DNA from: Rubrivivax sp.
GTDB lineage: Bacteria > Pseudomonadota > Gammaproteobacteria > Burkholderiales > Burkholderiaceae_C
NCBI GenBank assembly: GCA_022842305.1
Contig: JALHPY010000006.1
Coordinates: 21,778 to 85,777 of the forward strand
DNA: 64,000 bases
Reading direction: 5' to 3'
In this document: positions 37,220 to 45,919 of the stretch, piece by piece
Layout of the letters: every line of letters begins with the position of its first letter
Position numbering within the stretch: the stretch's first letter is position 1
The notes under the pieces: generated by a model
What the model saw: only the letters and a program-made list of their open reading frames with translations
Databases searched by the model: none
What the model was told of the DNA's origin: nothing
Position numbers and translations under genes: made by a program

Positions 37220-37891
37220 TCAGTACCCCAGCATGTTGGCGCGTACATGCTGCAGGTGCGCCAGGCACAGCGCACGCGCGCGCTCGGCGTCGCGTTCGCG
37301 CAGCGCGGCCACCAGGGCGCGGTGTTCCTGCTGGTATTCGCGCCGACGCTCGGGCGTGGCGCTGCGGCGCTTGAGCAGGCCCCATTCGCCCTGCGCGCGC
37401 ACCTCGTTCATCAGGCGGAAGACGCCGCTGATGAAGCCGTTGTGCGCTGCTTCGGCAATGGCCTCGTGCAGCGCCGCGTCCCACTTCTCGAACTCTTCCA
37501 GCGTGCTGGCCGCCTCGGCCTGCAGGTTGCAGTCTTCCATGCGCTGGAAGTCGGCCGGAGTGGCGTTGACGATGGCCATGTCGATGAGCGCCGGTTCCAG
37601 CACCATGCGCGCGTTCATCAGCTCGGCCGGACTCACCTGGTGGGGGCCGGCGGGCGGCGAGATGGCGGCCAGCGCCTCCTGCACACCCTCGGCCACGTAG
37701 GTGCCGCTGCCCACGGTCTGGGTGATCAGGCGGCGGCGCTTCAGATCGGCCAGCACGCGCCGCACGGTGGAGCGGCCGACGCCGTAGCGCTCGCTCAAGG
37801 CGCGCTCGGTGGGCAGGCGGTGACCAGCGCGCCAGACGCGGGTGCGCAGGTTGTCGATGATGTCTTCGCGCAGCTGGGCAGTAGCATCCAT
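37220..37891 (-). CDS. GntR/FadR-family transcriptional regulator (FCD domain)
   Basis: REDIIDNLRTRVWRAGHRLPTERALSERYGVGRSTVRRVLADLKRRRLI; FCD-type C-terminal helices. Confidence 0.93.
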   Translation of the reverse strand: MDATAQLREDIIDNLRTRVWRAGHRLPTERALSERYGVGRSTVRRVLADLKRRRLITQTVGSGTYVAEGVQEALAAISPPAGPHQVSPAELMNARMVLEPALIDMAIVNATPADFQRMEDCNLQAEAASTLEEFEKWDAALHEAIAEAAHNGFISGVFRLMNEVRAQGEWGLLKRRSATPERRREYQQEHRALVAALRERDAERARALCLAHLQHVRANMLGY

Positions 37892-37950
37892 GGCGCGCAA
37901 TGGTATCCTTTTGGGCGATTTGGGTCAGCACACCGAACCGGGGATACAGC

Positions 37951-38811
37951 ATGCGCATCGCCACCGTTCTGCACCAGGGCCGGCCGCGCGTCGGCCGCAT
38001 CAGCGCCGACGGGGCCACGCTGGAGCTGTACAGCGCAGACGGCAGCCGCGGCGCGCTGGCGCTCATCGAAGCCGGCAGCCTGCCCGACAGCGGCGAGCGC
38101 GTGGCGCTGGCCGGCGCGCAGCTGCTGGCGCCGTTGCCGCGGCCGCGGCGCAACATCTTCTGCGTGGGCCGCAATTACCACGCCCATGCGCGCGAGCTGC
38201 GCGAGTCGGTGTTCAAGGACAACGCCAAGGCGGTGGACGCCTGGCCCATCGTCTTCAGCAAGGTGCCTGAATGCGTGGTCGGACCGGGCGCCACGGTGAC
38301 GCTGCCCGCGGCCGTCTCGCAGCAGATCGATTACGAGGCCGAGCTGGCCGTGGTCATCGGCCGCGGCGGGCGCAACATCGCCCGCGCCGATGCCATGGCC
38401 CATGTCTGGGGCTACACCATCGTCAACGACGTGACCGCGCGCGACGTGCAGATGCGCCACGGCCAGTGGCACCTGGGCAAGAGCTTCGACGGCTTCTGCC
38501 CGATGGGGCCGTGGCTCGTCACAGCCGATGAACTGGATGGCCAGGACACGCGCGTGCGCTGCTGGGTCAACGGCGAGCCGCGCCAGGACGCGCGCACCAC
38601 CGACCTGATCTTCGACATCCCCAGCCTGATCGAGACCTGCTCGCGCGGCATCACCCTGTACCCGGGCGATGTCATCGCCACCGGCACGCCGGCCGGCGTG
38701 GGCATGGGCCTGTCGCCGCCACGCTGGCTGGCGCATGGCGACGTGGTGCGCATCGAGATCGATGGCATCGGCGTGCTGGAAAACCGCTTCATCGAGGAGA
38801 ACCGCGCATGA
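37951..38811 (+). CDS. Fumarylacetoacetate hydrolase family protein
   Basis: NIFCVGRNYHAHARELRE; DYEAELAVVIGRGGRNI; GYTIVNDVTARDVQMRHGQWHLGKSFDGFCPMGPWLV; GTPAGVGMGLSPPRWL. Confidence 0.95.
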   Translation: MRIATVLHQGRPRVGRISADGATLELYSADGSRGALALIEAGSLPDSGERVALAGAQLLAPLPRPRRNIFCVGRNYHAHARELRESVFKDNAKAVDAWPIVFSKVPECVVGPGATVTLPAAVSQQIDYEAELAVVIGRGGRNIARADAMAHVWGYTIVNDVTARDVQMRHGQWHLGKSFDGFCPMGPWLVTADELDGQDTRVRCWVNGEPRQDARTTDLIFDIPSLIETCSRGITLYPGDVIATGTPAGVGMGLSPPRWLAHGDVVRIEIDGIGVLENRFIEENRA

Positions 38812-39797
38812 ACCGTCGCCATTTCCACCGCGCTGCCGCTGCAGCGCTGCTGTTCGCCGCCGCCGCCGTGCAGGCCCAGGGCGTACCGACCCAAGGCAGT
38901 TGGCCCGAAAAGACCATCACCCTGGTCGTGCCCTTCCCGCCCGGCGGCGTGGCCGATACCGTGGCGCGGCCGGTGGCCGAGGCCCTGGGGCGCGAGCTCA
39001 AGCAGACGGTGGTGGTCGAGAACCGCGTCGGCGCCGGCGGTGCAACCGGCATGGGCAGCGTGGCGCGGGCCGCGCCCGACGGCTACACGCTGCTGATGGC
39101 GCTGTCGTCCATCTCCATCCTGCCCGAGGCCGACCAGATCCTGGGCCGCAAGCCGGCCTATGCGCTGAACCAGTTGCGCCCCATCGCGCGCTTCACCGCC
39201 GACCCCACGGTGCTGGTGGTGCGCGCCGACGCGCCATGGAAGACCCTGGCCGAGTTCGTGGCCGACCTCAAGGCCCAGCCCGCCCGCTACAACTATGGCA
39301 GCTCGGGCAACTACGGCACCATGCACGTGCCGATGGAGATGCTCAAGGCGGCGGCGGGCTTCCGCATGACGCACATCCCCTACACCGGCGCCGGCCCGGC
39401 CGTGCTGGCGCTGCTGGGCGGGCAAGTGGACGCCATCAGCAGCGGCCCGGCCAGCGTGCTGCAGCACATCAAGGCCGGCAAGCTGCGCGCGCTGGCGCAC
39501 TGGGGCGACAAGCCGCTGAGCGCATTGCCCGATCTGCCCAGCCTCAAGCAGGCCGGCTTCGAGGCCAGCTTTGCCCAGTGGTCGGCGCTGTTCGTTCCCG
39601 CCGGCACGCCCGAAGACGTGGTGACGCGGCTGCGCGCCGCCGCGGCCAAGGCGGCGCGCGACCCGCAGGTGGTGCAGACCATCCAGCGCGCCGGCAGCCC
39701 GCTGGAATACCAGGACGCGCCCGAGTTCAAGACCTACTGGGACGCCGACGCCGCGCTGATGGTGCAGGCCGTGCGCCGCATCGGCAAGGTGGAGTGA
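38808..39797 (+). CDS. Bug-family (TctC-like) tripartite tricarboxylate transporter substrate-binding protein
   Basis: WPEKTITLVVPFPPGGVADTVARPVAEALGRELKQTVVVENRVGAGGATGMGSVARAAPDGYTLLM. Confidence 0.95.
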   Translation: MNRRHFHRAAAAALLFAAAAVQAQGVPTQGSWPEKTITLVVPFPPGGVADTVARPVAEALGRELKQTVVVENRVGAGGATGMGSVARAAPDGYTLLMALSSISILPEADQILGRKPAYALNQLRPIARFTADPTVLVVRADAPWKTLAEFVADLKAQPARYNYGSSGNYGTMHVPMEMLKAAAGFRMTHIPYTGAGPAVLALLGGQVDAISSGPASVLQHIKAGKLRALAHWGDKPLSALPDLPSLKQAGFEASFAQWSALFVPAGTPEDVVTRLRAAAAKAARDPQVVQTIQRAGSPLEYQDAPEFKTYWDADAALMVQAVRRIGKVE

Positions 39798-39800
39798 CGC

Positions 39801-40376
39801 TCAGGCGGGGCCCGGGTCCACCACGCGCTGCTTGATCAGCGCCAGCGCCGGCTTGAAGGCCGCGTCGGTGCAGGCGTCCAGCCACTCGAAGGCCACCATC
39901 TCGGTGCTGACGATCACCGCGCCGGCGCTTTCCAGCCGGCGCATCGCCGCGGCGTGGTCGCGCGGCGAGCGCGAGGCGCAGGCGTCGGCCACGACGAACA
40001 GCGACTGCCCGGCGCGCAGCAGGCCCAGCGCGGTCTGCAGCATGCAGACATGTGCCTCGCAGCCGGCCAGCACCACGTCGCCGGGGTCGGCCGGAGCGAC
40101 CGATTCGCGCAGCGCGTGCAGCAGGCCGTCGCGACAGGCGTCGAAGTGCATCTTGGGCAGCGTGGGTGAGCACAGTTCGCGCAGGGCCGCGACGTTGGGG
40201 CCCAGGCCGGCGGGGTTCTGCTCGGTGCCGATCACTGGCAGGCCCAGCAGCCGCGCCAGGCGCGCCAGGAACAAGGCTTCGTCGACGGCACGCGCGCCGC
40301 CGTGCAGCGCGGGCAACAGCCGCTGCTGGTAGTCCACCAGCACCAGCACCGCCTTGTTCCTGTCCATGTTCTTCAT
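39801..40376 (-). CDS. Isochorismatase-family cysteine hydrolase
   Basis: VLVLVDYQQRLLPAL; GTEQNPAGLGP; VVLAGCEAHVCMLQTALGLL (catalytic D and C). Confidence 0.92.
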   Translation of the reverse strand: MKNMDRNKAVLVLVDYQQRLLPALHGGARAVDEALFLARLARLLGLPVIGTEQNPAGLGPNVAALRELCSPTLPKMHFDACRDGLLHALRESVAPADPGDVVLAGCEAHVCMLQTALGLLRAGQSLFVVADACASRSPRDHAAAMRRLESAGAVIVSTEMVAFEWLDACTDAAFKPALALIKQRVVDPGPA

Positions 40377-40465
40377 CGCGCTGCGGCCTTTCCCCGGTTG
40401 GAATCCGGGCCTGAGCGGTGCATCGTACGCTCGCCTTCCCCGGCCCACCGCACGACCCCATCCCC

Positions 40466-42076
40466 ATGCACACCGATGCCCCCAGCCCGCCCAGCACCGC
40501 CCACCTGATGCGCGGCGCCGACTACCGCGAATCGCTGCGCCGGCTGCGCCCCGTGGTGTACGTGGACGGCCGGCGCATCGAGTCGGTGGCCGACGAGCCC
40601 GCGCTTCAGCCCGGCATCAACGCCCTGGCGGTGACCTATGACTTTGCGCACGACCCGGCGCTGGCGCCGCTGATGCTGGCGCGCCAGGGCACGCGCGCGC
40701 TGCCGGTGAACCGCATGCTGCACGTGGACGAATCGGCGGGCGACCTGCTCAACAAGCTGGAGGCGGTGCGCATCCTGTGCCAGGAAACCGGCTGCGCGCA
40801 GCGCTACCTGGCGCACGACGCGCTGGGCGCCCTGGCCCAGGTGTGCGCGCGCATAGCCGACGCCGACGGCAGCAACGAGCTGCGCGCGCGCTTTGCCGCC
40901 TACCTGGAACACGTGCAGGCGGCCGACCTGGCGCTGGGCATTGCCATGACCGACGCCAAGGGCGATCGATCCAAGCGCCCGCATGAGCAGGCCAACCCCG
41001 ACACCTACGTGCACATCGTCGAGCGCAACGCGCGCGGCATCGTCGTGTCAGGCACCAAGGCCATCGTCACCGGCGCGCCCTACATGCACGAGCTGCTGAT
41101 CATGCCGGGCCGCGCCATGGGCCCGGCCGACGCCGAATTTGCCGTGTGCTGCGCCGTGCCGATAGACGCCGCCGGCCTGACCATCGTCTCGCGCCCGGCC
41201 GGCCGGCCCGGTGACAAGGTGGAGCACGGCGCGCCGCTGTTCTCACGCCGCTACGGCCAGGCCACCGCCGTGGTGCTGCTGGACCGCGTGTTCGTGCCCT
41301 GGGAACGCGTGTTCGTTGCCGGCGAATGGCAACACGCCGGCCACCTGACGCACAGCTACGCCACCCATCACCGCCACAGCTGCATCGCCGCGCGCGCCGG
41401 CTTCGGTGATCTGCTGATCGGCGCCGGCGCGCTGATGTGCGAGGCCAACGGCCTGGACATCGCCAGCAACGCCAGCCTGCGCGAACCCATGGTCGAGCTG
41501 ATCAAGATCACCGAGGGCTTCTACGCCTGCGGCGTGGCTGCCAGCGTCTACGGCGCCCGGGATGAGTTCAGCGGCAGCTTCATGCCCGAGCCGGTGTTCG
41601 CCAACATCGGCAAGCTGCTGCTGGCCACGCAGATCTACGACATGCACCGCCTGGCGCATGAGGTCTCGGGCGGCCTGATCGTGGCCCTGCCCGGGCCCGA
41701 CGAAGACCACAACCCGGCGACTGCCGCCACCCTGGCCGAGGTGCTGCGCGCCAACCCGGCCGTACCCTACGACAAGCGCATCGAGGTGGCGCGCTTCGTC
41801 GAGGACCTGACGGCCTCGTACCAGGGCGGCTGGTATTCGGTGATCAGCCTGCACGGCGGCGGCTCGCCCGCGGCCATGAAGCAGGAGATCTGGCGCCGCT
41901 ACCCGGTGGGCAACAAGGTGGAACTGGTGGAGCGCCTGTTAGAGCGCGGCGTGCTGGCCGATGAGCAGCGCAGCATCACCGCCAACCGCCAGCCCGGCCG
42001 CTGCTGCGACCAGGGCTGCAGCACCCCGGGCCAGGCGCTGATGGTGCCGCTGCCCGAGCCCGGCCGGCGCCGCTGA
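40466..42076 (+). CDS. 4-hydroxybutyryl-CoA dehydratase / 4-hydroxyphenylacetate 3-hydroxylase family protein
   Basis: GADYRESLRRLRPVVYVDG; AMTDAKGDRSKRPHEQANPDTYVHIVERNARGIVVSGTKAIVTGA; GDLLIGAGAL; HGGGSPAAMKQEI. Confidence 0.9.
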   Translation: MHTDAPSPPSTAHLMRGADYRESLRRLRPVVYVDGRRIESVADEPALQPGINALAVTYDFAHDPALAPLMLARQGTRALPVNRMLHVDESAGDLLNKLEAVRILCQETGCAQRYLAHDALGALAQVCARIADADGSNELRARFAAYLEHVQAADLALGIAMTDAKGDRSKRPHEQANPDTYVHIVERNARGIVVSGTKAIVTGAPYMHELLIMPGRAMGPADAEFAVCCAVPIDAAGLTIVSRPAGRPGDKVEHGAPLFSRRYGQATAVVLLDRVFVPWERVFVAGEWQHAGHLTHSYATHHRHSCIAARAGFGDLLIGAGALMCEANGLDIASNASLREPMVELIKITEGFYACGVAASVYGARDEFSGSFMPEPVFANIGKLLLATQIYDMHRLAHEVSGGLIVALPGPDEDHNPATAATLAEVLRANPAVPYDKRIEVARFVEDLTASYQGGWYSVISLHGGGSPAAMKQEIWRRYPVGNKVELVERLLERGVLADEQRSITANRQPGRCCDQGCSTPGQALMVPLPEPGRRR

Positions 42077-42086
42077 ACGTTGAACG

Positions 42087-42311
42087 CTAGTTGAAGCGGC
42101 AGGCCCCCGGCCCGCCCGGGTTGCCGCAGCTGCCGCAGGGGCTGGCGGCCATGGGTGCGGCTTCGGGCGTGGCCGTGGACGTGGCAAACACCGACAGCTG
42201 CTTGGTCAGCGATACCGAGTGGCAGGCGGGGCATTCGGGCACGGTGTCCGAACGCACGAAGGCCTCGAACTCGCGGCCGCAGTCCTGGCAGGCGTACTCA
42301 AAGATGGGCAT
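42087..42311 (-). CDS. FmdB-type zinc-ribbon protein
   Basis: MPIFEYACQDCGREFEAFVRSDTVPECPACHSVSLTKQLSVFA; Cys-rich C-terminus. Confidence 0.93.
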   Translation of the reverse strand: MPIFEYACQDCGREFEAFVRSDTVPECPACHSVSLTKQLSVFATSTATPEAAPMAASPCGSCGNPGGPGACRFN

Positions 42312-42424
42312 GGCGGATCTCCTGGGGAATGGCGCATTTTCCTTCAGTCCGGCCGCGCCTGGACGCTGCATGCTTTGCACACCGCCCCCTTGAAGATCGG
42401 GGCAAGGGCCTCCACATCGGTTGC

Positions 42425-42975: not shown

Positions 42976-43567
42976 GTGATCCTGCCGCGCCTGAAGCAGG
43001 CCACCGCGGCACGCCACGCCGCCATCGAAACGCGCTCGGTGCTGCTGGAGCCGGGGCTGTCGTACGCCGCTTACCGCGCCTGCCTGCGCCGCTTCTTCGG
43101 CTACTACGCCCCGCTGGAGCGGCGCCTGCTGCGCTCGCCGGCCTGGCGCGGGGCCGGGCTGGCCTATGCCGACCGGCACAAGACGCCGCTGCTGACGCAA
43201 GACCTGGCGGCACTGGGTGTCACGGCCGAGGAACTGGCGCTGAGCCCCTGGTGCCTTGCACTGCCCGACCTGCGCACCACGGCGCAGCTGTATGGCTGCC
43301 TGTATGTGATCGAAGGTGCCACCCTGGGCGGCCAGATCGTCACGAAACACCTGCAGGCCAGCCTGGGGGTCACGCCGCAGACCGGCGGCGCCTTCTTCAG
43401 CGGCTACGCCGAGCACACAGGTTCGCGTTGGAAGGCCTTCGGAGCACAGCTGAACGCCTTCGCTGAGGCATCGGGCGCCGACGAAGAAATCACTGCCAGC
43501 GCCAATGAAACCTTCGCGACGCTGGACCGCTGGCTCTACCCGGCACCCCTCAGGGCACCCCTGCACG

Positions 43568-43590
<23 letters not shown>
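42976..43590 (+). CDS. bphO: Biliverdin-producing heme oxygenase
   Basis: LKQATAARHAAIETR (proximal His); LYVIEGATLGGQIVTKHL; adjacent to phytochrome. Confidence 0.9.

Positions 43591-45919
<2,329 letters not shown>

Follow-up and report, generated by a model that had tools for sequence, protein, structure and literature searches.

The locus analysed here raises the question of whether a protein built on the fold shared by HpaB and 4-hydroxybutyryl-CoA dehydratase (4HBD) is still likely to act as a 4HBD when two of the four positions that hold the cluster of that enzyme are occupied by other residues. The 4HBD mechanism is rare, in that a non-redox reaction proceeds via a flavin radical adjacent to a [4Fe-4S] cluster, and the enzyme is used as a marker of CO2-fixation cycles. 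The original prediction for this locus, derived from the DNA sequence, had proposed an enzyme other than a canonical 4HBD, with a probably flavin-only or otherwise altered activity.

An intact gene for a protein of the HpaB/4HBD fold

The gene was located in the window, i.e. the whole 64,000-nucleotide stretch of Rubrivivax sp. DNA that was analysed, with the following boundaries:

40466..42076, + strand: HpaB/4HBD-fold protein of 536 aa, ATG at 40466, stop codon at 42074-42076, open frame intact
40418, + strand: alternative GTG start, giving 552 aa with the same stop codon (42074-42076)

The coordinates assigned to it in the original prediction (40776-41395) cover only the middle of the 40466-42076 span. 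Both HpaB domains were detected in the window protein (PF11794, 279.8 bits; PF03241, 172.3 bits), and its nearest solved relatives were 6vjr (E 4e-84) and 1u8v (E 2e-81), with HpaB monooxygenases trailing distantly. A profile of the subfamily described below returned solved relatives in the same order as the window protein alone, and 1u8v and 6vjr were also the top Foldseek matches of the AlphaFold2 model. Both are 4HBDs, 1u8v being AbfD of Clostridium aminobutyricum and 6vjr the Nitrosopumilus maritimus enzyme. The likeness to these two proteins extends over ~470 residues at ~33-36% identity, and includes the HpaB_N and HpaB domains, the C99, H292 and T190 positions (AbfD numbering) and the AMTDxKGDR and S.HG.GSP blocks. 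The acyl-CoA dehydrogenase superfamily, including AidB, shows distant fold similarity (Foldseek E ~1e-8, TM ~0.4), but no sequence family match and a different domain organisation.

AlphaFold2 modelling based on close relatives only yielded a pLDDT of 63, and a mean pLDDT of 77 was obtained when two distant sequences from a scan of viral contigs were added. The C-terminal tail was undefined in the model, with pLDDT values below 50 for residues 454-497 and 502-536.

Two cluster ligands and three catalytic residues of AbfD are replaced

The [4Fe-4S] cluster of AbfD is held by C99, C103, H292 and C299. Equivalent sites were mapped through an HMMER alignment to the 1u8v chain, indexed per residue, and a 45-sequence MAFFT alignment gave identical columns:

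40793..40795, + strand: Cys110 at AbfD ligand C99, kept (104/104 relatives)
40805..40807, + strand: Tyr114 at AbfD ligand C103 (Tyr throughout the 26 sampled members, Cys throughout the nine 4HBDs)
41264..41266, + strand: Thr267 at AbfD catalytic E257 (Thr in 23/26 and Val in 3/26 sampled members)
41366..41371, + strand: His301 and His302, the latter (codon start 41369) at AbfD ligand H292, kept (both 104/104)
41381..41383, + strand: Cys306 at AbfD catalytic Y296 (104/104)
41390..41392, + strand: Ala309 at AbfD ligand C299 (Ala throughout the 26 sampled members, Cys throughout the nine 4HBDs)
41843..41845, + strand: Ile460 at AbfD catalytic E455 (alignment to the 1u8v chain and 45-sequence alignment)

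The claim that two of four ligands are kept (C110 and H302), with Tyr in place of C103 and Ala in place of C299, was thereby confirmed by residue-indexed alignments. No other cysteine of the protein was found at an AbfD ligand site, as C105, C229, C306, C513, C514 and C518 all lie elsewhere. The CxQR....DA and HR.S...(A/C)(K/R).G.GD patterns fix the register from either side. The single possible ambiguity is that a number of 4HBDs, 6vjr among them, have one residue fewer immediately ahead of C299, but no cysteine of the window protein enters the C299 column as a result. An alignment artefact as the explanation for the absent ligands was ruled out by these two-sided anchors and by the agreement of the HMMER, profile and MAFFT alignments. 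The shorter 4HBD-type sequences comprise 6vjr and five others, each with one residue fewer between Y296 and C299 than AbfD.

Y296, E257 and E455 are reported to have catalytic roles in AbfD, and altering any one of C103, C299, Y296, E257 or E455 is said to abolish, or nearly abolish, its dehydratase activity. The equivalents of the three catalytic residues were replaced in 26/26 sampled relatives of the window protein and in 0/9 4HBD-type sequences; furthermore, K300 of AbfD is represented by R310, and the flavin-side T190 is kept as T202. The window protein might perform the dehydratase/vinylacetyl-CoA isomerase reaction of 4HBD (EC 4.2.1.120/5.3.3.3) by means of different ligands and catalytic residues, as its closest solved relatives are 4HBDs, the domains are the same and the C99, H292 and T190 equivalents are retained. 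This is nevertheless improbable, since the equivalents of C103, C299, Y296, E257 and E455 are all replaced and the protein falls outside the 4HBD clade (see below). Moreover, genome G1062 encodes both a protein of the subfamily and a four-ligand 4HBD-type protein, suggesting that the two have different jobs.

A distinct clade with its own cysteine set

Besides the replacements listed above, the window protein was shown to carry cysteines that set it apart from 4HBDs:

40778..40780, + strand: Cys105, clade-specific (103/104 relatives; Gly in 4HBD)
41150..41152, + strand: Cys229 (104/104 relatives; Gly, Phe or, once, Cys in 4HBD)
41990..42019, + strand: tail motif QPGRCCDQGC, residues 509-518 (C513, C514 and C518 in 102/102 complete tails)

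A total of 104 relatives from several families and classes, 63-84% identical, share the residue pattern of the window protein, i.e. C105-x4-C110, C229, H301-H302-x3-C306 and a QPGxCCxxGC tail, while C127 and C325 vary among these sequences. No counterpart of the tail motif was present in the 4HBD or HpaB sequences of the 45-sequence alignment. The tail cysteines are also retained, as CCATGC, in an unannotated C-terminal fragment on the Mycolicibacterium gilvum plasmid pMSPYR101 (L148:9001-9564), by which the subfamily reaches Actinomycetota; an IS1380 element and a short gene for an acyl-CoA dehydrogenase are located close to this fragment.

In a scan of GTDB genomes, 549 stretches were found to encode relatives, the best 80 of these 549 being 75-84% identical and mostly derived from Betaproteobacteria. 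An order-level sample yielded matches in 14/399 genomes, of which 13 belonged to the subfamily and one was 4HBD-like, and other proteobacterial classes among the sampled genomes hold members at 64-67% identity. Phage records contained no match to the subfamily. Within the genus, the gene is patchily distributed (8/60 genomes), as might be expected if the gene were decaying or misassembled and its active-site changes were products of degeneration; the likelihood of this is negligible, as the frame is intact, dN/dS values against six relatives ranged from 0.13 to 0.24 and the 104 relatives, which span several families and classes, carry the same residues. Gene decay was ruled out on the basis of the dN/dS values and the common residue pattern.

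In a maximum-likelihood tree (LG+C20), the subfamily, the 4HBDs and the HpaB set each occupied one side of a supported branch. The subfamily and the 4HBDs were recovered as sisters on long stems (support 99/98 and 100/99, respectively), with the window protein outside the 4HBD clade and not grouping with HpaB. A further clade of the HpaB family, represented by L094 and L095, carries a 4HBD-like motif (TDPKGDRSKRP) without the cluster ligands, and branches nearest to the group formed by 4HBD and the subfamily.

All four AbfD ligand equivalents were absent from the sampled HpaB sequences, whereas the equivalents of C99 and H292 were invariant in 104/104 relatives; judged from these sequences, the two residues are a shared derived pair of the subfamily and 4HBD. 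Because HpaB proteins lack all four ligands, the tree cannot distinguish loss of C103 and C299 in the subfamily from their gain in 4HBD, and as the subfamily is sister to the 4HBDs rather than nested among them, these ligands may never have been gained. The description of the two ligands as missing is consequently accurate as to their absence, but the loss that it implies is an assumption that the tree does not show.

The proposal of an enzyme other than a canonical 4HBD is thus strongly supported by the consistent replacement of two ligands and three catalytic residues and by the separate clade. No description of the subfamily was found in a search of the open literature, and, on the sequence comparisons above, it is best described as a distinct, widespread and apparently undescribed subfamily of the HpaB/4HBD fold with its own cysteine set. 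Its genes could receive the annotation 4-hydroxybutyryl-CoA dehydratase because of their similarity to 4HBD, an error against which the C103 and C299 positions together with the CCxxGC tail offer a simple test. As a sister clade with exactly two of four ligands and a replaced relay, the subfamily represents a natural experiment on the evolution of the 4HBD site and on the purpose of its cluster.

Genomic context

The genes adjoining members of the subfamily were compared across 99 loci, including that of the window, where the nearest upstream gene is:

39801..40448, - strand: isochorismatase-like cysteine hydrolase (PF00857, 90.8 bits), divergent from the subfamily gene

The probable start of this hydrolase gene is the ATG at 40376, which would leave ~90 bp between the two genes. 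An isochorismatase-like hydrolase adjoins the subfamily gene in 44/99 loci, being divergent and upstream in 34 and downstream on the same strand in 10. A TetR regulator (TetR_C_33) is located upstream in 62/99 loci, always divergently, and no TetR gene lies beside the subfamily gene in the window. These TetR and isochorismatase-like neighbours further distinguish the subfamily from 4HBD.

Several less frequent neighbours are linked to CoA metabolism, including an AidB-type acyl-CoA dehydrogenase (9/99 loci), a PrpE propionate-CoA ligase (8/99) and an AcuI acrylyl-CoA reductase (6/99), representatives of the latter two scoring above the NCBIfam equivalog cut-offs. In one locus, two CaiB CoA-transferase genes and HMG-CoA-lyase-like and CitE-like genes surround the member, and in two loci an oxalate/lactate-type MFS transporter is encoded directly upstream. 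The CoA-related neighbours point to short acyl-CoA metabolism, although most loci lack them and some of their occurrences are among related genera.

The context also bears on whether the window protein is an HpaB-type two-component FADH2-dependent monooxygenase, which would take a phenolic compound or another small molecule as substrate and depend on a flavin reductase whose gene lies elsewhere. No flavin reductase gene (PF01613) was detected in the window, in agreement with the earlier remark that it encodes no HpaC, nor among the recurrent neighbour clusters of the subfamily loci; the only PF01613 (Flavin_Reduct) match in the draft genome is on a different contig. That one gene, the Pfam HpaB domains, the overall fold and domain organisation shared with the oxygenase components of HpaB and chlorophenol monooxygenases (2yyg, 6b1b, 3hwc and 4g5e), and an OYE-type NADPH dehydrogenase gene downstream in 10/99 loci are compatible with such an activity. 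However, identity to these oxygenases is ~20-27%, the invariant cysteines and H302 are absent from the HpaB type, and the window protein scores far below the TIGR02309 and TIGR02310 equivalog cut-offs (131.5 versus 480.2 bits and 87 versus 885.2 bits, respectively). In addition, Ile159 is aligned to the active-site His142 of TtHpaB, and the strongly supported branch that joins the window protein to 4HBD, rather than to HpaB, likewise makes a monooxygenase unlikely.

Proposed function of the subfamily

The reading favoured over its rivals, at a probability of roughly 0.4, is that the subfamily may comprise FAD enzymes with a rewired metal or Fe-S site and a short acyl-CoA substrate. FAD would be bound in the usual cleft, where T202 is kept, and C110 and H302 would hold a metal site beside the flavin that probably consists of either an Fe-S cluster or one metal ion. 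The site could be completed by the new cysteines, namely C306 plus either C105 or the C-terminal CCxxGC tail, the latter perhaps contributed by a neighbouring subunit. Flavin and metal would then jointly assist the conversion of a short-chain acyl-CoA, for instance by elimination or isomerisation, along a route without the Tyr296/Glu455/Glu257 relay of AbfD. Half of the metal-holding residues, together with key catalytic residues, being swapped for conserved cysteines, the chemistry is probably related to that of 4HBD, but different. The divergent TetR regulator probably controls expression in most hosts, and the pathway served by the subfamily protein probably also involves the isochorismatase-like hydrolase.

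A remodelled metal site is preferred over a flavin-only enzyme mainly because the C99 and H292 equivalents are shared derived residues that have been strictly retained. H302 and C306 are both contained in a modelled helix (residues 288-327), and helix geometry suggests that C306, four residues after H302, should face the same side. A more specific version is a third cofactor arrangement for the HpaB/4HBD fold, in which FAD and an adjacent metal or Fe-S centre on C110, H302, C306 and the tail cysteines would support a hitherto undescribed elimination, of radical or Lewis-acid type, on a short acyl-CoA; it is rather unlikely in that exact form; acryloyl-CoA is put forward as an example product because PrpE, AcuI and a lactate/oxalate-type transporter are encoded nearby in some hosts.

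The main rival, a real but lesser possibility, is a flavin-only enzyme, or a flavin enzyme with redox-active cysteines, whose lineage either never gained the cluster or lost it. C110 and H302 would then have acid/base or thiol roles, and the CC..C tail would form a disulfide relay, comparable in principle to the C-terminal cysteine pairs of some flavin reductases. That two of the cluster ligands and three catalytic residues of AbfD are absent is consistent with this, as is the vicinal Cys513-Cys514 pair in the tail that was left disordered by the AlphaFold2 model. The host genera are mainly aerobic, and an exposed cluster would be a liability to them. Conversely, invariant shared ligands with a new cysteine one turn further on the same helix are a common metal-site arrangement, and C110, H302 and C306 are all lacking in the HpaB relatives, themselves flavin-only enzymes. 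The original preference for a flavin-only activity was therefore not upheld, since C110 and H302 are invariant in 104 relatives and absent from HpaB, and six clade-specific invariant or near-invariant cysteines favour a re-ligated site; its broader wording, an otherwise altered activity, is a fair reading of the residue replacements and the separate clade. C306, C105 or the tail cysteines could nevertheless act as redox-active thiols rather than ligands, and H302 as a base.

Other genes flanking the locus

Directly downstream of the subfamily gene, a small zinc-ribbon protein of the FmdB type (PF09723), whose tail contains Cys, is encoded at 42087-42320 on the - strand, and a gene of this type is also found downstream of the subfamily gene in one other locus. 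On the other side, at 37220-39797, a GntR/FCD regulator gene is divergent from a gene of the FAA-hydrolase family and a gene for a TctC-type solute-binding protein, this group probably constituting a separate catabolic operon. A heme oxygenase gene and, after it, a gene for a bacteriophytochrome histidine kinase (PAS_2, GAF, PHY, HisKA and HATPase_c domains) were identified at 42976-45919, and response-regulator genes continue to ~49160, the whole representing a red-light sensing cluster.
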